Below are positions 24,443 through 36,860 of a DNA stretch of 36,860 nt, piece by piece (positions within the stretch are counted from its first letter, which is position 1; the number at the start of each line of letters is the position of its first letter). This DNA comes from Eubacterium sp. (lineage in GTDB: Bacteria > Bacillota > Clostridia > Lachnospirales > Lachnospiraceae): assembly GCA_017472565.1 (NCBI GenBank), contig JAFUPY010000005.1, positions 1 to 36,860 on the forward strand, written 5' to 3'. The notes below the pieces were generated by a model that searched no databases, was not told the origin of the DNA, and saw only the letters and a list, made by a program, of their open reading frames with translations. A program made the position numbers and the translations under genes.

Positions 24443-24485
24443 GAAGGAATTGGTCTAGTTTTGTACTAACAAGCTAACCCCAAAA
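24443..24485. other. Approximate right attachment junction (attR region) of the prophage
   Basis: The minus-strand host lipoprotein frame is normal up to the ITGFG coding region (24,479-24,481), then turns into seven unrelated residues and a stop at 24,455. The last phage gene ends at 24,386, and the spacer is AT-rich. The junction therefore lies in or near this interval. The partner site (attL) and the integrase lie outside the window, so the core sequence cannot be defined here. Confidence 0.5.
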
Positions 24486-24742
24486 CCTGTTATAAGCTCC
24501 AACTCAATTCCCTGTTCTTCAAAGTAGCCGTTTTCAATTGCTACATACATAGGGGCATAAAAAATAGAGTGTGCCACTTCGTTTAAAATAACAGGGGTCA
24601 ACTCTGGCTGGTTCTGTGTAGATTCTGTCGGTGTGTCTGGCATGGAGATTTCATCGGTCTTTGATCCGCATCCGGCAAGGGCAGAGATTGCCAGAATGGC
24701 ACAAAGACCCAGAGAAATCAGTTTTTTTGAAAATCTTTTCAT
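24455..24742 (-). pseudogene. Truncated ABC-transporter substrate-binding lipoprotein gene (5' part)
   Basis: Only 95 codons remain. MKRFSKKLISLGLCAILAISALAGCGSK is a lipoprotein signal peptide with lipobox LAGC. Residues ~50-88 match the start of NMT1/SsuA/THI5-like binding proteins (VILNEVAHSIFYAPMYVAIENGYFEEQGIELELITGFG). ATG at 24742 is chosen because GAGG lies just upstream on the minus strand. Normal family members have roughly 300 more residues; the rest is lost at the prophage border, so prophage integration has cut this gene. The uninterrupted host gene would bind a small molecule such as a sulphonate or a thiamine precursor; which one cannot be told. Confidence 0.82.
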
Positions 24743-24792
24743 AAAATCCTCAAGAGTCATTTTGGTATATTGTATGTGGGAAACAAAAATAG

Positions 24793-24821
24793 GTGAGATA
24801 GATTTTTGGCTGTGAGATAGA
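24793..24821 (-). promoter_or_regulatory. Direct-repeat operator candidate upstream of the truncated lipoprotein gene
   Basis: GTGAGATAGA occurs twice (24793-24802 and 24812-24821), 19 bp apart, in the minus-strand upstream region of the lipoprotein gene; a TACAAT (minus strand) lies at 24769-24774. Two helical turns would put the repeats on about the same DNA face. Regulator unknown. Confidence 0.3.
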
Positions 24822-24872
24822 ACGGTCATTCATTGCTGAGAAAAAAGATTGGATACAAATAAAAAGATTCCC

Positions 24873-28308: not shown

Positions 28309-29775
28309 ATGAAAAAAGGTGAAATTGTAGAAGGTATTGTTGAAAAAGTGGTATTCCCCAACAAGGGAGTGGTTTCTGTTGGTGATAAAAAAGTAGTGGT
28401 AAAGAATGTGACACCGGGACAGAAGTTGTCTGTCATGGTAACAAAGGTACGTAAAGGGAAGGGAGAAGGCCGTGCGCTGGAGATTTTGGAAAAGGCTCCA
28501 CAGGAACTGGATGCGCCAGCCTGTGTACACTTTGGAAGCTGTGGTGGCTGTGTGTATCAGAATCTGCCATATGAAGAACAGTTAAAGCTGAAAGCAGATC
28601 AGGTGTTGGAACTGATGGAAGCGGTGGTTCCAAACGCGGCAGAGATTTTTGAAGGAATTAAGCCAAGTCCAAGACAGTTTGGATACCGCAATAAGATGGA
28701 ATATACCTTTGGAGATGAGATTAAAGATGGACCCTTGTCTGTGGGCATGCACAAAAGAGGCAGTTTTTATGACATTGTGACTGTGGATCAGTGTCAGATT
28801 GTGGACGAGGATTATCGTAAGATTTTATCTGCTACGTTGACATTTTTTGCAGAAAGGGAAGTTCCATTTTTCCATAGACTGCGCCATATAGGATATTTGC
28901 GTCATTTGTTGGTGCGTAAAGCGGTGAAAACAGGGGAGATCCTCATTGATCTGGTTACAACCACCCAGAGCATCAAGAAACAGGAACGGGAATTGCCAGA
29001 TGCCGCAGGTGTAGCGGGCAATAGTATGACGGCAAGAACACCAGAAGAAGTGCAGATGGAAGCAGAACTATTGGAAGACTGGAAAAATATGCTTCTTGGG
29101 CTTGCTTTGGATGGAGTCTTTGCCGGTATCTTACATACCAGGAATGACAGCGTGGCTGATGCGGTGAAAAATGAAGGCACAGACCTGCTGTATGGCAGGG
29201 ATTATATTGTAGAGGAACTTTTGGGATTACAGTTCAAGATTTCAACGTTCTCTTTCTTCCAGACCAATTCTCTGGGCGCGGAAGTGCTGTATGAAACAGC
29301 TCGCCAGTACATTGGGAATACGCTGGATGAAAAAGCAGACAAGCTGGTATACGACCTTTACAGCGGAACTGGCACAATCGCACAAATGCTGGCTCCAGCT
29401 GCGAAGAAGGTCATTGGTGTGGAAATCGTAGAGGAGGCAGTGGAAGCAGCGAGAGAAAATGCGGCATTGAATCAGCTTCATAACTGCGAGTTCATTGCAG
29501 GCGATGTATTAAAAGTGTTGGACAATATTGAAGAAAAACCAGACTTTATCGTACTGGATCCGCCACGGGATGGCATTCATCCAAAGGCGTTGGAGAAAAT
29601 CATCCAGTATGGCGTGGACCGCATGATTTACATCTCCTGTAAGCCAACCAGTCTCCAGAGAGACCTGGAAGTGCTGCAGGCGAGAGGATACAAGGCGGAG
29701 AGAATCTGCTGTGTAGATATGTTTCCTGCAACAGCCAATGTGGAGACTGTTTGCATGTTGAGCAACCGAAAATAA
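28309..29775 (+). CDS. rlmD: 23S rRNA (uracil-C5)-methyltransferase, RlmD/RumA type
   Basis: The 488-aa protein is read from ATG 28309 (AAGGAG at 28291-28296; the in-frame ATG 28297 is only 1 nt from it). An N-terminal TRAM domain (~residues 1-60) is followed by a 4Fe-4S site C72-x5-C78-x2-C81 with C162. A SAM-binding YDLYSGTGTIAQMLAP motif (~350), DPPRDGIHPKA (~425) and MIYISCKPTSLQRDL with catalytic C444 complete the TrmA/RumA family set. It methylates a uracil in 23S rRNA (position 1939 or its Gram-positive equivalent); which site cannot be told. Confidence 0.93.
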   Translation: MKKGEIVEGIVEKVVFPNKGVVSVGDKKVVVKNVTPGQKLSVMVTKVRKGKGEGRALEILEKAPQELDAPACVHFGSCGGCVYQNLPYEEQLKLKADQVLELMEAVVPNAAEIFEGIKPSPRQFGYRNKMEYTFGDEIKDGPLSVGMHKRGSFYDIVTVDQCQIVDEDYRKILSATLTFFAEREVPFFHRLRHIGYLRHLLVRKAVKTGEILIDLVTTTQSIKKQERELPDAAGVAGNSMTARTPEEVQMEAELLEDWKNMLLGLALDGVFAGILHTRNDSVADAVKNEGTDLLYGRDYIVEELLGLQFKISTFSFFQTNSLGAEVLYETARQYIGNTLDEKADKLVYDLYSGTGTIAQMLAPAAKKVIGVEIVEEAVEAARENAALNQLHNCEFIAGDVLKVLDNIEEKPDFIVLDPPRDGIHPKALEKIIQYGVDRMIYISCKPTSLQRDLEVLQARGYKAERICCVDMFPATANVETVCMLSNRK

Positions 29776-29789
29776 AATATAACATACAT

Positions 29790-29820
29790 ATGGCGAGAGG
29801 AAAATTTTTCCCCTCGCCAT
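29790..29820. terminator. Convergent-gene hairpin between rlmD and ymaF-like gene
   Basis: ATGGCGAG (29790-29797) pairs with CTCGCCAT (29813-29820), and the loop-side AGGAAAATTTTTCC extends the stem, giving an almost continuous palindrome. No T tract follows on either side, so it is a strong hairpin between two convergent genes that may act as a bidirectional terminator. Confidence 0.55.
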
Positions 29821-29873
29821 TCTGTTGTTTAGATACCGTAGTTCATATGATTTCTCGGGTGGTTTTATTGCGA

Positions 29874-30356
29874 TTATTCACAATCGTACTTAAACTGGGT
29901 TGGTTCATTGATCAGAGAAGCCACCTGGAATCTGTGCACATGGCCGTCTTCGCTGCCTGTGGAGGCAGTGGCATAGTGTACATGTTTTCCATTCCCTACA
30001 TCAATGGCACAGGATGACTTGCCGCAGAATTCGTGGTAATGTCCATCTGCATAATCGGTTCGGAAGGTAACTTCGTGAACATGATCATTGCCGGCAACTG
30101 CAATTGCTTCTCCTGACATGGTGCAGAAACGGTGATTGTGGCAGCTGTTGCATTCACCAACTGGCTCTGTGCTGCCGATTACTTCATGCACATGCTGCTG
30201 GTCATTGCAGCCACAGGAATCATTTTTGTTGTACATGCCGGAGTTACTTCTGTTATACATATTGGAATCGTTCCGGTTATGCATGTTGGAATTGCTTCTG
30301 TTATACATATTGGAACTGCTGCGATTGTACATATTAGAATAATTTCTATTGCTCAT
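29874..30356 (-). CDS. YmaF-like His/Cys-rich protein with N-terminal octapeptide repeats
   Basis: The 160-aa protein starts at 30356 on the minus strand; AAAGGA lies upstream. Residues 8-47 are five 8-residue repeats of the form NMYNRSNS. A YmaF-type core follows, with several His-x-His sites: QQHVHEV, NDHVHEV, GKHVHYA and DGHVHRFQVASLINEP, plus Cys residues in SCGCND, ECNSCHNH, CGKSSC. YmaF-family proteins are of unknown function; the repeated HVH/Cys sites suggest metal binding. The long + strand frames over this gene are antisense shadows. Confidence 0.8.
   Translation of the reverse strand: MSNRNYSNMYNRSSSNMYNRSNSNMHNRNDSNMYNRSNSGMYNKNDSCGCNDQQHVHEVIGSTEPVGECNSCHNHRFCTMSGEAIAVAGNDHVHEVTFRTDYADGHYHEFCGKSSCAIDVGNGKHVHYATASTGSEDGHVHRFQVASLINEPTQFKYDCE
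30216..30335 (-). repeat. Five 24-nt tandem coding repeats in the ymaF-like gene
   Basis: These encode NMYNRSSS, NMYNRSNS, NMHNRNDS, NMYNRSNS and GMYNKNDS. The units differ at few nucleotides, so copy number may vary between strains by slippage. It is a coding repeat, not a CRISPR array. Confidence 0.75.
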
Positions 30357-30417
30357 AACGGATAATCCTTTCTTAAATCGTTACTCCTAATATATGCAGT
30401 CTGAGCAAAAAGGGAAG

Positions 30418-31980
30418 TTATTGTTCTGGTTCCTGTTTTAAATATTCCAATATCTTAAATGAAAAGTGGAGCTTAATCAGTTCGTCACCGTGATTCAATG
30501 GATTGCCGGTGATTTTTTTAATCTTTTCAATACGATACAGCAACGTATTTTTGTGAATGTGCAGATAGTCTGCGGTCTGCTGTGTGTTTTGTGAAAAGTT
30601 CAGGTACTGATACAGGGTATTGAAAAAGTCGGTTTTCTTTTCTTCGTCGTAGGCCTTTAAGACAAGCAGGGCTGGATGACAGAAGTCCAGCAAACTGTAG
30701 TCCTTACTTTCGGAAATCTCCATCAGATGGAAGATAGTCATGGATTCGTAGCGGTAAAGACCAGGTGCATTATCCATTTTCTGACCGAGCTGGGCGGCCT
30801 TTAAGGACTGCTCATAATATTTTCGGATTTCCTGAATGTTGGAAAAACAGTTGCTCAAGCCTGCAATCAGGCCATTGGCTTTTAGATAGTTTTCCACCTG
30901 TGGATTGTTAAAACGATGATTGTCATCTTCGCGGCAGCCATTGATCAGGAAAATGATTGTATTCTGGTAAATAACGTACAGACTGTTTGGAATCATGCTC
31001 TGTAAGTCGGCGATGATCATTTCCTGCTTGGACTCCGAGGTGGCATTGTACTTGTTGCTGACGGACAGCAGGAACAGGTCATTCTGCAATACATAGCCCA
31101 ACGTTGCCAGACGCTCCCGGCTTTGTTCGATGTTGCCGGAGTTGTTGTCCAGCAGATCCCCGATAAAGTAGGCATACATGGTGCCTTTGTTTTTCTTATA
31201 AAAGTCGGTTTTCTGCATTTCAATAGAGATGATTCGGCAGAGTCGATTCATCAGTTCATAGTCGTTTTCCGTAAACATGTGATTCTGTTCGTACATCATA
31301 ATGTGAGCCACTTCGATGTCGTGGATCTTTACAGAACCGATCATCATACCCTTATAGTTGTGGATAGGGTTCTGCAGATAATATGGACGACGGCTTTTAC
31401 GAACCTGGTCATCTACCTTGTTGCGGCGGATGAACTCGATTCCTTCTTTTTCGATATGTCCCAGAGTGTTTTCTTTTTCCATCAGCGGATTGTCCGCTTG
31501 AGCACCGGAAGATACGGCAAGATATTTATAGGAATTGTCTGATAAAAACAATGGATTCCCCAGTACACTGTAGCCCACGTCAAGGATTCCCTGCAGTCCT
31601 TCATCGTTAAACAGCGCATCCAAAAACAGTCGCATACCGGTCACGACCTGCTGGCTCTCTAAGAAAATCTCCTGGATGGTATTGTATACGGCAAATGGAT
31701 CCGACTCTTCGTTCAGGTGGAGCAGGGTCATTGGCGCATTGCCTACGTAGAGCCCAAGGATGTCGAACTCCGGCCCATACAGCATAAAGTTGGTGCTGAA
31801 GGTAAACTGCATGTTCTTTGGCAGCATATTCACATGTCCAAAATAAAGGATATTAGGCAAAAATACAGTCTGATTCTCTGTCAGCAGCTTGATGCCGGTA
31901 AAATCTGTCTTGCTGTTTTCGTTTCGAATATATCGGATATCCCATTCATCCAGACGTTCTAAAATCTCTTTCAGGAACAT
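30418..31980 (-). CDS. PucR/CdaR-family transcriptional regulator
   Basis: The 520-aa protein is read from 31980 on the minus strand; the AAAGGAG ribosome binding site lies right upstream, and the longer frame from 32040 has none. The central part is a large ligand-sensing region (GAF-like segments such as MTLLHLNEESDPFAVYNTIQEIFLESQQVV). The C-terminal ~70 residues are the PucR/CdaR helix-turn-helix (FSQNTQQTADYLHIHKNTLLYRIEKIKKITG, ~470-500). It is divergent from the thiolase operon. Two GTGC-N4-GCAC palindromes in the shared spacer are likely operators of this protein; whether it activates or represses is not known. Confidence 0.88.
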   Translation of the reverse strand: MFLKEILERLDEWDIRYIRNENSKTDFTGIKLLTENQTVFLPNILYFGHVNMLPKNMQFTFSTNFMLYGPEFDILGLYVGNAPMTLLHLNEESDPFAVYNTIQEIFLESQQVVTGMRLFLDALFNDEGLQGILDVGYSVLGNPLFLSDNSYKYLAVSSGAQADNPLMEKENTLGHIEKEGIEFIRRNKVDDQVRKSRRPYYLQNPIHNYKGMMIGSVKIHDIEVAHIMMYEQNHMFTENDYELMNRLCRIISIEMQKTDFYKKNKGTMYAYFIGDLLDNNSGNIEQSRERLATLGYVLQNDLFLLSVSNKYNATSESKQEMIIADLQSMIPNSLYVIYQNTIIFLINGCREDDNHRFNNPQVENYLKANGLIAGLSNCFSNIQEIRKYYEQSLKAAQLGQKMDNAPGLYRYESMTIFHLMEISESKDYSLLDFCHPALLVLKAYDEEKKTDFFNTLYQYLNFSQNTQQTADYLHIHKNTLLYRIEKIKKITGNPLNHGDELIKLHFSFKILEYLKQEPEQ

Positions 31981-32081
31981 AAAAGACTCCTTTCTTTTAG
32001 TTTGGTCAATGGCAATCAAAAAGCTTTGGTGCTTTTTCATAAAATTTAAGCAACGAATTTGTGCATGTTATCAGAAAATGG

Positions 32082-32091
32082 TTTGTACAAA
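32082..32091. promoter_or_regulatory. Short palindrome in the divergent spacer
   Basis: TTTGTACAAA is a 10-bp perfect palindrome between the regulator gene and its promoter. It differs from the two GTGC-N4-GCAC sites, but it shares the flanking TTTGT/ACAAA with a half site TTTGTGCA at 32058-32065. Role uncertain. Confidence 0.35.
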
Positions 32092-32123
32092 TACAAAAAC
32101 AACACGATACTCAATGCGATATT

Positions 32124-32135
32124 GTGCGTTTGCAC
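32124..32135. promoter_or_regulatory. GTGC-N4-GCAC operator candidate near the regulator start
   Basis: GTGCGTTTGCAC is embedded in the wider inverted repeat TTGTGC-GTTT-GCACAA (32122-32137). It lies at about +11 to +22 of the predicted regulator transcript, a position suited to autoregulation. Confidence 0.55.
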
Positions 32136-32152
32136 AAAACTGATTTGTGTCT

Positions 32153-32181
32153 AGTATACAACAAGAAACTAGGCAAAACAA
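32153..32181 (-). promoter_or_regulatory. Promoter of the PucR/CdaR-type regulator
   Basis: On the minus strand, TTGTTT (32176-32181) and TATACT (32153-32158) are 17 bp apart. The predicted start near 32146 would give a leader of about 165 nt before the regulator gene at 31980. Confidence 0.5.
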
Positions 32182-32267
32182 GGTTGTTTTATGGCTTAAA
32201 ATATGGGTTTTTTAAGAAAAAATTTTTTTATTCCCTAAAAGGTAACCGGGATGATAAAAAAATATTC

Positions 32268-32309
32268 GTGCAATTGCACGATGTAAATACTGCGTTTTGA
32301 TACTATAAT
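32268..32309 (+). promoter_or_regulatory. Activator-type promoter of the thiolase operon
   Basis: A perfect 14-bp palindrome CGTGCAATTGCACG (32267-32280) contains GTGC-N4-GCAC. TATAAT (32304-32309) follows, with no good -35 hexamer at 17 bp. The palindrome centre lies about 42 bp upstream of the expected start (near 32316), which is the usual site for an activator that touches RNA polymerase. The protein is likely the divergent PucR/CdaR-type regulator. Confidence 0.6.
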
Positions 32310-32317
32310 GAAAACAT

Positions 32318-32432
32318 CGAAAAGCGCAGAGGCATACTGCTCGGTCTTTTATGGTATATAGATGTTCAGGAGCGTTCCTGAATCCCTTCATTTTTTGGTC
32401 TTTTTCGAGATTGGACAGTATGCAGCTTTCGC
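32318..32432 (+). ncRNA. Structured 5' leader of the thiolase operon (candidate cis-regulatory RNA)
   Basis: The leader can close on itself: CGAAAAGC (32318-32325) with GCTTTCG (32425-32431, one bulge), CATACTG (32333-32339) with CAGTATG (32416-32422), CTCG (32340-32343) with CGAG (32406-32409). Inside sits TTCAGGA-GCGT-TCCTGAA (32365-32382), 8 nt before six Ts (32391-32396), which could be an attenuator. I recognise no known riboswitch class. This is a hand-folded model. Confidence 0.4.
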
Positions 32433-32483
32433 TTTTGAGGTCTTATTTAACGGATATTATATCGGAGAAGGAGGATTTCTTTA

Positions 32484-33794
32484 ATGAAACAGGTAGTGAA
32501 TCAGACAAAGTTAGGACAGTACAGCAGAAGCGTTTCTATCATTGGTGTTGGTTGTACACCATTCATGTACACTGTTGACAATCCAGAAACAGATGGTTTA
32601 ACAGAAGGTGAAATGTACGGATATGCAGCACTGAAAGCGATGGAAGACGCAGGCGTAAGCCCACAGGATGTACAGTATTATTTCCACGGACAGGCTAACC
32701 CATTAGCAGGTTCCAATTACTTAACACCAAACGTACAGATTGCAAACTGGTTTGGTATGAAGGGCAAAGGCTCTATCCACCATTCCGAAGCTTGCTGTAC
32801 AGGTTACCTTGCACTCGAACAGGCTGTTAACGCAGTAGCTTCCGGCAAATATGACTGTGTACTTACAGGTGCAGTAGAATTTGGTGACTGCGGTGCTGAT
32901 GACATGCATCCATATAGACGTAACAAAATTCCAATGGAAGAGTTCTTAAAAACAACAAAATGGCTCTATGACCGTAACTATGCAAGAAGCTTTATGGCTC
33001 CAATGGAATTAATCTATGACGGAACAGCAGAATGGTACAAACGTACACGTGGCATTACAGATGAACAGATGGATGATACATTAAACCATATGTGCATCAA
33101 CAACAGAAAGAATGCTTCTGTTAACCCACTTGCATTAGAAAGAAAAACATACGAAGAATACGCAAAAGAAGCAGGATACGACGATGTAATGGATTACATG
33201 AGATCCCCATACAATCCAAAAATGGGTGACTTCCTTCGTCTTGGCGGTATCGAATTAAAATGTGACGGTGCTGCAGCTGTTATCGTATGTGCAACAGATA
33301 AAGTAGAAGAAATCACAAAAGGCAAATGCAAACAGCCAATCGAAGTTCTTGGTATTGGTTCTGCAGCTTGCGAAGCTACAAATCCACACTTCGAAGTACG
33401 TGCAACACAGGAAGCTGTTCGCCAGGTATACGAAGCAACAGGATTATCTGGAGATGATCTTGATATCTTCTACGCAAACGACTTCATCATTACTTCTCAC
33501 CTTGTATCTGCAGAAATCGCAGGATACCTTCCAGAAGGTGAAGGCTGGAAATACATCTGTGAAGGACGTACAGCTTACGATGGTGACAAACCAATCAACA
33601 CAAACGGTGGTAGAACATCCTTTGGTCATGCTCATGCAGCATCTGGTGTAGCTGACATCTATGAATGTGTAAAACAGATGAGAGGCGAAGCTGGCGAAGG
33701 TCAGGTTAAGAAGTTGCCTAAGACAGCAATGTTAAGAGGTTACGGCGGTTCTCAGAACGTAGCAGCAATCATCTTAAAAACACTTGAGAAATAG
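32484..33794 (+). CDS. SCP-x-type thiolase-like acyltransferase
   Basis: The 436-aa protein starts at ATG 32484 after GGAGAAGGAGG. The thiolase fold is clear: SEACCTGYLALEQAVNAV with likely nucleophile C104 (A-C-x-x-G), and NTNGGRTSFGHAHAASG with H382. Near the end, MLRGYGGSQNVAAIILK takes the place of the usual CxG motif; the second Cys is absent, as in SCP-x-like thiolases. Its partner genes are a DUF35 protein and an acyl-carrier-like protein. Archaeal thiolases and PhlC from diacetylphloroglucinol synthesis also work in complex with DUF35 subunits. The substrate is unknown; a ketoacyl-CoA or ketoacyl-ACP cleavage or condensation is inferred. Codon use is strongly biased, so it is probably highly expressed. 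Confidence 0.85.
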   Translation: MKQVVNQTKLGQYSRSVSIIGVGCTPFMYTVDNPETDGLTEGEMYGYAALKAMEDAGVSPQDVQYYFHGQANPLAGSNYLTPNVQIANWFGMKGKGSIHHSEACCTGYLALEQAVNAVASGKYDCVLTGAVEFGDCGADDMHPYRRNKIPMEEFLKTTKWLYDRNYARSFMAPMELIYDGTAEWYKRTRGITDEQMDDTLNHMCINNRKNASVNPLALERKTYEEYAKEAGYDDVMDYMRSPYNPKMGDFLRLGGIELKCDGAAAVIVCATDKVEEITKGKCKQPIEVLGIGSAACEATNPHFEVRATQEAVRQVYEATGLSGDDLDIFYANDFIITSHLVSAEIAGYLPEGEGWKYICEGRTAYDGDKPINTNGGRTSFGHAHAASGVADIYECVKQMRGEAGEGQVKKLPKTAMLRGYGGSQNVAAIILKTLEK

Positions 33795-33814
33795 GAAGAA
33801 GGAGGAAATCTATC

Positions 33815-34225
33815 ATGGCAATTAAATTAGAAAAAGTTGTAAAAACATTTTATGATAAACTTGAAGAAGGCAAAATCATGGGACGTAAATGCCCAGAATG
33901 TGGAGCAGTAGAATTTCCACCTGTATACGCTTGTAACACATGCGGATCTTATGAAACAGAATGGGTTGAAATCAGCGGCAATGCTGTAATGCACTCTATC
34001 GTATTACCAGCAGCTCTTTCCACAAAACCAGATTATGCTGACTTAAAACCATACGCATACGGCGAAGTAGAACTGGAAGAAGGTTCCAGATTAAACGCTG
34101 TTGTTCGTGGTATCAACAAGAAAAAACGTAAAGAACTGTTAGACAAACTTCCAGTTCCAGTAAAAGCAGCAATCTACCAGAGAGATGGCTACAAAACAGT
34201 AGTATTCGATTTAGTAGAAGACTAA
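33815..34225 (+). CDS. DUF35 zinc-ribbon/OB-fold protein
   Basis: The 136-aa protein starts at ATG 33815 after GGAGG, 20 nt behind the thiolase. A rubredoxin-like zinc ribbon is formed by CPECG (near residue 28) and CNTCG (near 43), then an OB-fold (~residues 55-110, EISGNAVMHSIVLPAALST ... GEVELEEGSRLNAVV). DUF35 proteins pair with thiolases and bridge active sites or channel acyl groups. Tight coupling to the thiolase gene supports a complex. Confidence 0.88.
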   Translation: MAIKLEKVVKTFYDKLEEGKIMGRKCPECGAVEFPPVYACNTCGSYETEWVEISGNAVMHSIVLPAALSTKPDYADLKPYAYGEVELEEGSRLNAVVRGINKKKRKELLDKLPVPVKAAIYQRDGYKTVVFDLVED

Positions 34226-34265
34226 TCCGTTACCAAAATAATTTATTATAAAGGAGACCAAAAAA

Positions 34266-34505
34266 ATGGATAGAAAAGAACTTGAAGCAAAAGTACTTGA
34301 ATGTGTAGCATTCGCTTACAAAAAAGACATCGCTGAAATCAGCGTTGACACAAACATCAAAGAAGACCTTGGCGGAGCTTCCGTAATCATGGTAGGTCTT
34401 GTTTCTCAGATCGAAAACGAACTTGACGTTTTAGTATCTCTTCCAGAAGCAAGTGCATGTGTTACAATCGGTGACTTAGTAGACAAAGTAGAAGAAGAGT
34501 TATAA
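34266..34505 (+). CDS. Acyl-carrier-like protein with DLGGAS motif
   Basis: The 79-aa protein starts at ATG 34266 after AAAGGAG. The phosphopantetheine site is DLGGAS with S39; the residue before Ser is Ala where standard carriers have Asp, and the following residues are VIM instead of LD. The fold is helical (ELEAKVLECVAFAYKKDIAEISVD ... VSQIENELDVLVSLPEASACVTIGDLVDKVEEEL). This is not the housekeeping AcpP by context; it is probably the dedicated carrier for the thiolase. Confidence 0.82.
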   Translation: MDRKELEAKVLECVAFAYKKDIAEISVDTNIKEDLGGASVIMVGLVSQIENELDVLVSLPEASACVTIGDLVDKVEEEL

Positions 34506-34518
34506 GAAACACTTTATG

Positions 34519-34540
34519 TCCCGCGCATTACTGCGCGGGG
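34519..34540 (+). other. GC-rich intergenic hairpin before the transacylase gene
   Basis: CCCGCGC (34520-34526) pairs with GCGCGGG (34533-34539) around a 6-nt loop, and no T tract follows. It is 14 nt after the carrier stop and is followed by the 13-mer ATAATAAGGTCTT. A stem that protects or separates transcript segments is more likely than a terminator. Confidence 0.5.
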
Positions 34541-34542
34541 CA

Positions 34543-34555
34543 ATAATAAGGTCTT
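34543..34555 (+). repeat. 13-nt motif ATAATAAGGTCTT (copy 1)
   Basis: Identical to 35727-35739. It follows a hairpin and lies 18 nt before the transacylase start. Possibly an RNA processing site or a protein/RNA-binding site. Confidence 0.45.
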
Positions 34556-34573
34556 AATTATGGAGGATTCAAA

Positions 34574-35578
34574 ATGAACGTTTTAGATCAGCTTTATGAA
34601 AAAGCGAAATTAAATCCTCAGAAAGTTGCTTTCCCAGAAGCATTAAATGAAAAAATGATGCAGGCTGCATACGAATGTGGTGTAGAAGGCTACATTGTAC
34701 CAGTTTTAGTTGGTAATGCAGAAGAAATCAAAGCAGCAGCTATTGAAAGAGGATACGATGTTAATGTATTTACAATCATTGATATCGCTGAAGAAACATA
34801 TAAAAATGAATTAATTGCTAAATACGTTGCTATGCCTGAAACAATGTTAAAAGAAAAGGCACTTGGTCGTCGTATGCAGGATCCACTCTACTATGCAATG
34901 GTTATGCAGGCAGTGGATGAAGCAGATGTAACATTTGCTGGTATCGACTACACAACAGGTGACGTACTTATGGCAGGCCAGATGATCATTGGCTTAAAAC
35001 CAGGTATCGCTACAATCTCCAGTATTGGTCTGTGTGATATCCCAGGTTTTGAAGGCAGTGAAGGATCTCTGCTTGCAATCGGTGACAGCGCTGTATGCAC
35101 AAACCCAAACCCAGAACAGTTAGCATCTATCGCAATCTCAGCATGTGATACTGTTTCTGCTTTACTTGATTGGGAACCAAGATGCGCAATGGTAAGCTAC
35201 TCTACACAGGGCAGTGGCCAGGGCGAATTAATTGATAAAGTAAAAGAAGCATTAAAGATTGCACAGGAAGCACGTCCTGATCTTGCTATCGATGGCGAAT
35301 TCCAGCTTGATGCAGCTATCGTTCCAGCTGTAGCAGCTAAGAAAGTTAAGACAGAAAGCAAAGTTGCTGGTAAAGCAAACGTTGTTATCTGGCCAGACTT
35401 AAACGTAGGTAATGTTGCAGTTAAACTGATTCAGCAGTTTGGTAAAGCAGATGCTTACGGTCCAATGCTTCAGGGCTTCAACAAAGTTGTTTGTGACTGC
35501 TCTAGAGGGGCTCCTGTATCCGAAATCAAAGGTAACATCGTTATCTCTGCAGTTCGCGCAGCAGGTGCTAAAAAGTAA
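34574..35578 (+). CDS. Phosphate acyltransferase (Pta-type; acetyl or butyryl)
   Basis: The 334-aa protein starts at ATG 34574 after GGAGG. Family motifs are clear: MVSYSTQGSGQGELIDKV, IDGEFQLDAAIVP, VAGKANVVIWPDLNVGNVAVKL and ADAYGPMLQGFNK. Length and motifs are more like Pta than the shorter Ptb. It transfers an acyl group from CoA to phosphate. The neighbouring butyrate kinase gene suggests that butyryl- or another short-chain acyl-CoA is the substrate. Preferred codons dominate, pointing to high expression. Confidence 0.9.
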   Translation: MNVLDQLYEKAKLNPQKVAFPEALNEKMMQAAYECGVEGYIVPVLVGNAEEIKAAAIERGYDVNVFTIIDIAEETYKNELIAKYVAMPETMLKEKALGRRMQDPLYYAMVMQAVDEADVTFAGIDYTTGDVLMAGQMIIGLKPGIATISSIGLCDIPGFEGSEGSLLAIGDSAVCTNPNPEQLASIAISACDTVSALLDWEPRCAMVSYSTQGSGQGELIDKVKEALKIAQEARPDLAIDGEFQLDAAIVPAVAAKKVKTESKVAGKANVVIWPDLNVGNVAVKLIQQFGKADAYGPMLQGFNKVVCDCSRGAPVSEIKGNIVISAVRAAGAKK

Positions 35579-35593
35579 ATATGATTTAAAAGT

Positions 35594-35715
35594 GGCTGTT
35601 GCATAACAGACTTGAACCGCTCCGGGAAAAAATTGGCTCTTACAAACCTTAAGAACGGTTTGCGCGAGGCAATTTTTCTCCCAGCCGCGGTAAAGAAAGT
35701 TTACGGGCAACAGCC
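35594..35715 (+). repeat. Long hairpin element (copy B) between the transacylase and kinase genes
   Basis: GGCTGTTGC (35594-35602) pairs with GCAACAGCC (35707-35715). Inside are ACCGC with GCGGT, GGGAAAAAATTG with CAATTTTTCTCCC (one bulge), and AAACC with GGTTT, so the element folds as one ~122-nt imperfect hairpin. It begins 15 nt after the stop codon and ends before TGTTTT. Core arms and TTGAACC match the element at 28149-28272. Confidence 0.6.
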
Positions 35716-35726
35716 TGTTTTATGAC

Positions 35727-35739
35727 ATAATAAGGTCTT
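35727..35739 (+). repeat. 13-nt motif ATAATAAGGTCTT (copy 2)
   Basis: Identical to 34543-34555. It lies 17 nt before the kinase start, again just after a hairpin. Confidence 0.45.
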
Positions 35740-35756
35740 TTATAGAGGAGAATATA

Positions 35757-36860
35757 ATGAAAGCATATAAAATTTTTGCTATTAACCCTGGTTCCACATC
35801 TACAAAGATTGCTTTAATCCAGGGTGACGAAGTTCTTTTTTCAAAGAACGTATCTCATGATGCTAAAAAATTGGCTGAATATGATGGTATCTCTGCACAG
35901 AAACCATACCGTGTAGAAACAATCATGAACCTTCTTGACGAAGCAGGCATCAAACTTGATGATGTAGATGCTTTTGTAGGTCGTGGCGGCGGTTTGCTTG
36001 CTATGGAAGGTGGTACATACAAAATGAGCGATATTATGCTTGACCATGCAACAAGAGGTGCAAATGGTATCCAGCATCCAGCGCAGTTAGGACCACAGAT
36101 TGCAAATGAACTCGCATTACAGTACAATGTACCAGCATTCGTAGTAAACCCACCAGACGTAGACGAATATCAGGATCTGGCTCGTATGACAGGTATGAAG
36201 GGCATCTACAGAACATGCCACCTTCACGCTCTGAACTTAAAAGAAACAGCAATTCGTCACGCTGATTCCGAAGGCAAAAAATACGAAGAACAGAACTACG
36301 TTGTATGTCACATCGGAGGCGGTGTATCCGTATCTGCACACAAACAGGGTAAAATGATTGACGGTTTTGATATCGTTGGCGGTGAAGGCCCAATGTCTCC
36401 AACAAGATGTGGTGAACTTCCAGTTGGCAACCTGTTAAGATACTTAAAAGACAAAGACATCAACGAAGTAAAAGCAATCTGCACAAGAAGCGGCGGTTTT
36501 GTAAGCCACTTCAATTCCTCTGATGCATTAGAAATCAGCAACCGTGCAGCAGAAGGCGACAAATATGCAGAAATGGTACGGAACACAATGATCTACCAGA
36601 TCACAAAATGCATCGGTTCCATGGCATCTGTACTTCACGGTAAAGTAGACGGTATCCTCCTTGGCGGTGGTATGGTTTACAACAAAGGCCTTGTAGCTCA
36701 GATCAAAGAAGCTTGTGAATGGATCGCTCCAGTAAGCGCATACCCAGGTGAATTTGAAATGGAAGCTATGGCAGCAGGCGCAAACCGTGTATTAAACGGT
36801 GTTGAAGAAGCGAAAGAATATACAGGTGTTCCTGTATGGACAGGTTTTGACTTTGAATAA
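35757..36860 (+). CDS. buk: Butyrate kinase
   Basis: The 367-aa protein starts at ATG 35757 after AGAGGAG and ends exactly at the window end. It is an ASKHA-fold kinase with the butyrate kinase signature: AINPGSTSTKIALIQ (phosphate 1), VGRGGGLLAMEGGTY, VVCHIGGGVSVSAHKQGKMIDG, EGPMSPTRCGELP and GKVDGILLGGGMVYN. It makes ATP and a carboxylate from an acyl-phosphate. Coupled to the Pta-type enzyme, this is a substrate-level phosphorylation step. Size and motifs match Buk more than AckA. Confidence 0.95.
   Translation: MKAYKIFAINPGSTSTKIALIQGDEVLFSKNVSHDAKKLAEYDGISAQKPYRVETIMNLLDEAGIKLDDVDAFVGRGGGLLAMEGGTYKMSDIMLDHATRGANGIQHPAQLGPQIANELALQYNVPAFVVNPPDVDEYQDLARMTGMKGIYRTCHLHALNLKETAIRHADSEGKKYEEQNYVVCHIGGGVSVSAHKQGKMIDGFDIVGGEGPMSPTRCGELPVGNLLRYLKDKDINEVKAICTRSGGFVSHFNSSDALEISNRAAEGDKYAEMVRNTMIYQITKCIGSMASVLHGKVDGILLGGGMVYNKGLVAQIKEACEWIAPVSAYPGEFEMEAMAAGANRVLNGVEEAKEYTGVPVWTGFDFE

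Follow-up and report, generated by a model that had tools for sequence, protein, structure and literature searches.

Thiolase-fold enzymes paired with a DUF35 protein are known from several described systems, and here we compare these systems with a five-gene operon of Eubacterium sp. (Lachnospiraceae; GenBank assembly GCA_017472565.1, contig JAFUPY010000005.1) that encodes a thiolase, a DUF35 protein, an acyl-carrier protein (ACP), a phosphotransacetylase (Pta)-type phosphotransacylase and a kinase of the butyrate kinase (Buk) family. The whole stretch of DNA analysed, here called the window, has 36,860 bases and is the entire contig C7 of a host genome of 2.1 Mb that is 68.6% complete. Our explanation of the operon is a module for substrate-level phosphorylation that is independent of coenzyme A (CoA) and based on the carrier, with polyphenol ketones named only as the most likely substrates. 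We put this forward tentatively, giving the explanation as a whole slightly less than an even chance of being right.

The Friedel-Crafts acylase PhlA/PhlB/PhlC (PpATase) of Pseudomonas protegens shares with the operon a thiolase-fold acyltransferase together with a DUF35 protein, an acyl-cysteine and an [YF]HG motif N-terminal to that cysteine. PhlABC, however, shuttles acyl groups from one phenol to another and yields no ATP, and the operon adds the carrier, Pta and Buk. A PhlA/HMGCS-like third subunit did not show up among the members of recurrent clusters in the 80 related loci described below, for which no search aimed at it was run. The archaeal thiolase/HMGCS/DUF35 complex has the same thiolase–DUF35 pair, with CoA bound at the interface of all three proteins, as reported in PMC6392133. 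This complex uses CoA and feeds 3-hydroxy-3-methylglutaryl-CoA (HMG-CoA) synthase, whereas the operon has a carrier protein and no HMG-CoA synthase was seen in it. The pair is also found in the benzoylsuccinyl-CoA thiolase BbsAB (7pxp), which works in anaerobic aromatic degradation on a CoA thioester, and for which we know of no dedicated carrier, Pta or Buk.

Phosphotransacetylase has its fold and its Ser-Arg pair in common with the operon enzyme, in which the arginine of the R133 type is lost. PlsX, which we take to be an acyl-ACP:phosphate acyltransferase, would catalyse the same type of reaction as the operon Pta if the carrier is the donor, but the operon enzyme is a Pta in sequence and not a PlsX. 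In component C of glycine reductase (GrdC/GrdD), acyl phosphate is presumably formed independently of CoA when a thiolase-superfamily acyl enzyme delivers its acyl group to a partner resembling Pta/PlsX; we take that system to differ in that a selenoprotein, rather than C–C cleavage, supplies the acyl group, and we know of neither a DUF35 nor an acyl-carrier protein in it. The phloretin hydrolase/phloroglucinol pathway of flavonoid-degrading Clostridia shares the ecological setting, the presumed substrates and nearby FLR-like ene-reductases, but there the C–C cleavage is hydrolytic and energy is not directly captured. To our knowledge, none of PhlABC, the archaeal complex, BbsAB, PlsX and glycine reductase component C has this set of genes. 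Searches of full-text literature for this gene combination did not bring up a description of the set among the matches listed (titles and abstract starts, with subscription papers and preprints outside their coverage). Each component family has been described before, unlike their combination and the apparent loss of CoA use.

The five-gene set and its conservation

The first gene (32484..33794, plus strand, as are the next four) encodes an SCP2/PhlC-like thiolase of 436 aa (PF22691, 100 bits). It is followed by a DUF35 protein of 136 aa with a ChsH2-type Zn ribbon and OB domain (33815..34225; PF12172 zf-ChsH2, 35.5 bits; PF01796, 24.6 bits, under the cut-off of 27.1), an acyl-carrier protein of 79 aa with Ser39 in DLGGAS (34266..34505; PF00550 PP-binding, 34.2 bits) and a Pta-type phosphotransacylase of 334 aa (34574..35578; PF01515 PTA_PTB, 283.8 bits; TIGR00651, 254.5 bits, under the cut-off of 311.2). 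The last gene (35757..36860) encodes a predicted acyl kinase of 367 aa, whose membership of the butyrate kinase family is borne out by the curated model TIGR02707 (372.6 bits against a cut-off of 289.1); its stop codon ends on the final base of the contig. The first-pass annotation had named these five genes and a divergent PucR-CdaR regulator, and the Pfam and NCBIfam matches agree with it, with the regulator lying outside the interval that it gave. The tight spacing that it described holds for the first four genes (gaps of 20, 40 and 68 bases) but not for Buk, which follows after 178 bases. A purine-rich ribosome-binding site precedes each of the five genes.

The codons of the highly expressed type that had been noted were found again. 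The five operon genes pooled have an effective number of codons (ENC) of 34.5, against 48.6 for UvrD-, RlmD- and PucR-like genes together and 50.7 for four pooled phage genes, the reference being other window genes, with the phage and neighbour genes named by eye; ribosomal rplB was not found in this incomplete genome. The capsid-like phage gene of the window is itself biased (ENC 37.7). The strong codon bias of the five-gene set fits high expression.

Scanning genome contigs with a profile built from 12 thiolases yielded 270 confirmed relatives, and the best 80 of these 270 (L029–L108, 75–81% identical) were used for comparison. They come from Butyrivibrio, Pseudobutyrivibrio, Blautia, Schaedlerella, Petralouisia, Eubacterium plexicaudatum, other Lachnospiraceae and some Oscillospiraceae, many of them from rumen or gut. 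Retention was counted in the 50 loci with at least 3 kb of upstream and at least 4.5 kb of downstream DNA, the 30 with shorter flanks being excluded, and a gene was scored as present when it lay within 5 kb of the thiolase on the same strand at a BLAST E <= 1e-3 among all open reading frames (ORFs) of at least 50 aa. The first-pass annotation had proposed such a synteny comparison and would have regarded the grouping as accidental if the carrier were never retained with the thiolase. The carrier was found in 50/50 loci, as was DUF35; Pta was found in 48/50 and Buk in 46/50, and all five genes were together in 44/50. The position of Buk varies among loci, upstream or downstream of the thiolase. 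Variant operons that read thiolase-DUF35-carrier-Buk, with no Pta between carrier and Buk, were seen at L034, L040, L051, L058 and L097.

Gene fusions, which speak to the second refuting condition of the first-pass annotation (a failure of thiolase and DUF35 to associate), were also found. Thiolase and DUF35 form a single open frame in 6/80 loci (L061, L069, L075, L093, L101 and L102), and Pfam confirmed the fusion in both of the two fusion loci that were run. Five of the six are 91–98% alike and L101 shares 71% identity with L061, so that they represent about two lineages of fusion. The host genome has three more thiolase clusters (on C5, C32 and C105), and in two of these paralogous clusters DUF35 is fused to the carrier, with one carrier domain in L026 (19.8 bits, narrowly under the cut-off of 20.8) and two in L017; BLAST recognises the DUF35 portions of both, which are under the Pfam cut-off (L017) or have no score (L026). 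A holo-ACP synthase cluster occurs in the directon of 7/80 loci, one member of which was run against Pfam (PF01648, 57 bits). The retention, the fusions and the holo-ACP synthase in some directons argue that thiolase, DUF35 and carrier belong together, and the five-gene grouping is not accidental. The two paralogous modules of the host (L026, 710–17873; L017, 3070–13577) stand beside [FeFe]-hydrogenase-, 4Fe-4S- and fumarate-reductase-like flavoprotein genes, identified by Pfam for two L026 proteins and by eye for the remainder, and their substrates may differ from those of the window operon.

Catalytic residues and the predicted acyl flow

The residues of the operon Pta were numbered by alignment with the Methanosarcina thermophila enzyme (1qzt). 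The catalytic pair Ser309-Arg310 is kept in 72/72 operon Ptas, and the residue equivalent to R133 is never arginine in these 72 (Leu in 66, Met in 2, Ala in 2, Val in 1 and Ile in 1). In a side-by-side PTA_PTB alignment from five related genomes, R87 and R133 are both absent in 8/8 module-type Ptas and both present in 6/6 Ptas of the same genomes (L117–L122), the housekeeping status of the latter being presumed from their high PF01515 scores (391–419 bits). Seven module-type Ptas (L123, L124, L125, L127, L129, L131 and L132) lie within a thiolase cluster and L128 was assigned by its 81% identity to the window Pta only; three phosphotransbutyrylase-like rows (L126, L130 and L133), which are 24–26% identical and have a Lys close to position R133, were left out of this comparison. 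The lost R133-type arginine is most simply read as a sign that the operon Pta would take its acyl group from the carrier instead of from CoA. This loss is the main new evidence beyond the first-pass annotation. The carrier itself is probably a dedicated acyl-carrier protein: its predicted phosphopantetheine site Ser39 is kept in 81/81 sequences, and it lies far under the cut-off of the general ACP model (TIGR00517, 30.4 of 70.45).

In the thiolase alignment the nucleophile C104 is found in 94/94 sequences and H382, the His of GH(P/A), in 93/93 non-gap sequences, and the C-terminus RGYGGSQN has GYGG and no CxG. The residues noted in the first-pass annotation were thus correct and, in addition, are invariant. 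The thiolase has NDF where others carry HDCF or YDHF, with N332 in 92/93 and D333 in 93/93 non-gap sequences, and a second acid/base Cys, whether in a C-terminal CxG or in HDCF, is not present. The relatives BbsB and 7yvy have HDAF at that motif, so that the missing second Cys does not exclude thiolysis. Near the N-terminus the thiolase has F-H68-G (H68 in 93/94), and the region aligned with it in the PhlC chain of 5m3k reads YGYHGEG at 53–59 (Y-H56-G), whereas the four other thiolases with listed alignments have YVGN or YIGN (three) or VSN (4yzo) there. In the excerpted source, His56 of PhlC is essential and hydrogen-bonds phloroglucinol (PMC6392133). The pairing of H68 with His56 is exact in 2/3 of the PhlC chains listed and off by three residues in the third, and is therefore a similarity to PhlC rather than proof. 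The Zn ribbon cysteines of DUF35 (C26, C29, C40 and C43) are kept in 80/80 non-gap sequences.

In the mechanism that we propose, Cys104 of the thiolase would attack a C-acyl or 1,3-dicarbonyl substrate at its carbonyl, and the adjacent C–C bond would break with the departure of a carbanion, in a retro-Claisen or retro-Friedel-Crafts reaction like that of PhlC on acylphloroglucinols. The acyl group would then move from Cys104 to the phosphopantetheine of the carrier, the arm being seated by DUF35, and the resulting acyl-S-carrier would have its carrier swapped for phosphate by the Pta-type enzyme. The acyl phosphate would finally yield ATP and the free acid through the butyrate-kinase-type enzyme. 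Complex formation, the acyl-carrier intermediate, the direction of the reactions and the substrate are what we infer from sequence and gene context. Taken alone, the carrier-linked flow from acyl group to ATP is in our judgement probable. The first-pass annotation had proposed a comparable flow, from carrier to acyl phosphate to ATP, and this part of it gains support from the loss of the CoA-site arginine; in place of its beta-ketoacyl group, the gene context rather suggests a polyphenol-derived C-acyl or 1,3-dicarbonyl compound.

Neighbouring genes and a probable link to plant polyphenols

Directons and neighbours of the 80 loci were listed with a codon-scored ORF picker, which leaves some genes unpicked, such as DUF35 in L029, L065, L070, L071 and L080, and neighbour families were assigned from one representative each. 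The recurrent neighbours are a DUF1097 membrane protein (33), a NuoG-GltD fusion (28), a NuoF-like protein (19), a fumarate-reductase-like flavoprotein (23), two clusters of FMN-reductase-fold proteins (25 and 19), a metallo-beta-lactamase-fold protein (10), MFS transporters (14) and two clusters of PucR regulators (14 and 10). The best NCBIfam model for the fumarate-reductase-like flavoprotein is vinyl phenol reductase (326 bits against a cut-off of 600, one member). For the two FMN-reductase clusters (one member each) the sole PDB relative at E <= 0.01 is 7d38 with its sister entries, identified in an excerpt of PMC7862272 as the flavone reductase FLR of Flavonifractor plautii. An FLR-like ene-reductase gene was found in the fetched stretch of 48/80 loci (35/46 among those longer than 15 kb) and in the thiolase directon of 24/80 (17 + 7). 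Gfo/Idh dehydrogenases, carboxylesterases and feruloyl-esterase-like BD-FAE proteins also occur at some loci. A recurrent set of NuoG-GltD, NuoF-like and fumarate-reductase-like genes was seen at L041 (15413–20409), L073 (10396–15331) and L081 (from 5787); it resembles an ene-reductase complex that is NAD(P)H-linked and possibly bifurcating.

For genome co-occurrence, 54 thiolase-bearing genomes (those of 50 of the 80 loci, picked for longer contigs and named isolates, together with G000, G036, G067 and G075) were compared with 150 genomes of the family of the window, from 149 genera. Five of the 150 gave a thiolase match at E <= 1e-30, four of them at least 76% identical (the host included) and the fifth, G033, 31% identical and not classed as thiolase-bearing. 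An FLR-like gene was found in 52/54 thiolase-bearing and 13/150 family genomes (4 of the 13 being thiolase-bearing), and C-glycoside deglycosidase beta in 44/54 and 12/150 (3 of the 12 thiolase-bearing). The Fisher P values of 6e-36 and 1e-25, respectively, are inflated by relatedness and by the differing sources of the two genome sets. In a thinned test within the 150 genomes, FLR-like genes occurred in 4/4 thiolase-bearing genomes (P = 3.5e-5) and deglycosidase beta in 3/4 (P = 0.0015). Through this enrichment the thiolase-bearing genomes look like polyphenol-degrading genomes. The likeliest substrates would be ketones derived from plant polyphenols, for example dihydrochalcone-type aryl ketones; deglycosylation would come first, followed by ene-reduction by the FLR-like and fumarate-reductase-like enzymes and then by cleavage of the dihydrochalcone-type ketone, so that energy wasted in hydrolytic cleavage by phloretin hydrolase would be conserved. 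That the carrier-linked flow, through a CoA-blind phosphotransacylase, has polyphenol ketones as its true substrate and serves a kind of fermentative energy conservation in rumen and gut Clostridia that is absent from the literature searched is possible but, on balance, doubtful.

The phloretin-hydrolase family PF18089 was found in 9/54 thiolase-bearing and 7/150 family genomes, and the other 45/54 have no match to this known C–C hydrolase family. The thiolase as a plain substitute for phloretin hydrolase is not supported by these counts, in which the hydrolase family is enriched and not exclusive; PF18089 is missing in 43/52 genomes with both an FLR-like gene and the thiolase, and also in 6/9 with an FLR-like gene and no thiolase. 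On host contig C5 (L028, 6494–10699), genes for BKACE, a PF04199 cyclase, 3-hydroxyacyl-CoA dehydrogenase and a thiolase stand consecutively, apparently a phloroglucinol degradation cluster as in C. scatologenes. This cluster and the six PF18089 matches of the host count in favour of our explanation. The phloroglucinol pathway proceeds through CoA intermediates with an ordinary thiolase and kinases, as far as an excerpt of PMC10470551 describes it.

Several observations weigh against our explanation. The R87 column, which lies in an indel region, has Arg in 6/72 operon Ptas, so that only the loss of R133 is uniform, and that these two arginines of the M. thermophila enzyme take part in CoA binding is our assumption. 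Pta is missing in 2/50 and Buk in 4/50 of the loci with sufficient flanks. An orthologue of dihydrophloroglucinol cyclohydrolase (DPGC, at least 86% identical) occurs in only 5/54 thiolase-bearing genomes (3/150 in the family), and the phloroglucinol ring as a general substrate was rejected for this reason. In the host genome the DAPG/phloretin hydrolase family PF18089 already has six matches (on C31, C102, C119 and C115), which leaves no need there for another enzyme of this cleavage; both FLR-like genes of the host sit on contigs other than that of the operon, and a search of this 68.6% complete genome gave zero matches to C-glycoside deglycosidase beta. G021, of the same genus, has FLR-like, hydrolase and DPGC genes and zero thiolase matches. 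In four thiolase-free genomes (G029 C41, G082 C15, G110 C41 and G144 C5) an FLR-like gene lies within about 2.2 kb of a C-glycoside deglycosidase beta gene. The association of FLR with the thiolase may therefore be indirect, running partly through deglycosylation, and there is a hint that the FLR-like ene-reductase and the deglycosidase act together.

In the window, the PucR/CdaR-type transcriptional regulator (540 aa, 30418..32040, minus strand; PF13556 HTH_30, 58.9 bits; PF17853, 25.2 bits) is divergent from the thiolase, and the 443 bases between them (32041..32483) are, by position only, the presumed promoter and operator region. Of the 67 related loci with at least 1.5 kb of upstream DNA, 11 have a divergent PucR/CdaR homologue no farther than that from the thiolase. 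An Rfam scan of 29700–36860 gave zero matches at the gathering threshold, and the promoter and terminator scan was uninformative, promoter-like sites being no commoner than in shuffles. Between the RlmD-like and PucR genes lies a gene for a 160-aa protein (29874–30356, minus strand) that carries an SNMYNRSN-type repeat at its N-terminus and segments rich in His. A tailed-phage-like prophage region (283–24386), with terminase-, portal-, capsid-, tape-measure-, tail- and lysin-like ORFs named by eye, covers most of the contig; a tRNA-Met is at 1361–1436, and a short, apparently truncated lipoprotein-type ORF follows the prophage region (24455–24829, minus strand).

Alternative readings and possible meaning of the operon

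The same module could act on a sugar-derived substrate, in which case a 3-keto sugar or enediolone from oxidative C-deglycosylation, as an open-chain 1,3-dicarbonyl, would give a small hydroxyacyl-carrier and then ATP. At L035 genes for C-glycoside deglycosidase beta and a xylose-isomerase-like protein lie immediately upstream of the thiolase in the same directon, the directon of L102 contains Gfo/Idh and deglycosidase beta genes and that of L045 xylose-isomerase-like and Gfo/Idh genes. Genes for sugar-type ABC transporters, recognised by eye, were seen at L045, L057, L087 and L100, and the 44/54 genomes with deglycosidase beta speak for this substrate as well. It would, however, leave the fumarate-reductase-like and FLR-like ene-reductases without a clear role, and the host genome has zero matches to the deglycosidase. 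We consider a sugar-derived substrate rather unlikely.

An ordinary CoA-dependent thiolysis of beta-ketoacyl-CoA was also weighed, by a thiolase–DUF35 pair of the BbsAB-like or archaeal type, with the carrier as an accessory and with Pta and Buk acting on acyl-CoA. The PDB relatives of the thiolase include 7yvy, 6esq, 7pxp and 5m3k, and the CoA-type thiolases 7yvy, 6esq and BbsB (7pxp) among these best-scoring solved relatives favour such a reaction, as does a Pta whose fold is intact and whose Ser-Arg pair is invariant. A carrier present in every locus with sufficient flanks, the DUF35–carrier fusions and the loss of the R133-type arginine argue for the contrary. Moreover, no CoA ligase or transferase, enoyl-CoA hydratase or hydroxyacyl-CoA dehydrogenase was found among the identified recurrent neighbours, singleton neighbours not having been searched. 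We regard CoA-dependent thiolysis as unlikely.

The reactions of Pta and Buk are reversible, and the operon might run in the biosynthetic direction, with Buk and Pta charging the carrier at the expense of ATP and the thiolase making a C–C bond, as in PhlABC-like C-acylation of a phenol or in the synthesis of a short polyketide. The carrier resembles those of polyketide and fatty acid systems, and PhlABC makes C-acylphloroglucinols with homologous subunits, as given in the excerpt of PMC6392133. The codon bias is very strong, transporters, ene-reductases and deglycosidases are often nearby, and no ketoreductase or aromatase was found among the identified recurrent neighbours, with the exception of SnoaL-like proteins in 4 directons; these observations run against biosynthesis, which we judge to be quite improbable. 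A DUF35-associated aldolase like Ltp2 or Sal, which would fit the common thiolase fold and the best DUF35 structure matches (9myr_B and 6ok1_B, both parts of aldolase complexes), is very improbable and a retro-aldolase reading was rejected, for the excerpted source has YDHF or YDCY in these aldolases and, in Sal, a Gly for the nucleophilic Cys with use of Tyr302 and Cys304 (PMC12329534), whereas here the Cys is present in every sequence aligned and the motif is NDF.

If our explanation of a CoA-independent, carrier-based module is true, a protein carrier stands in for coenzyme A in substrate-level phosphorylation from C–C cleavage, and the R133-type arginine gives a residue prediction that would separate carrier-using from CoA-using phosphotransacylases. 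A function would also be assigned to a conserved, codon-biased operon of Butyrivibrio, Pseudobutyrivibrio, Blautia and their relatives. Plant polyphenols would then supply gut and rumen bacteria with ATP, the bond energy being lost in the known phloretin hydrolase route.

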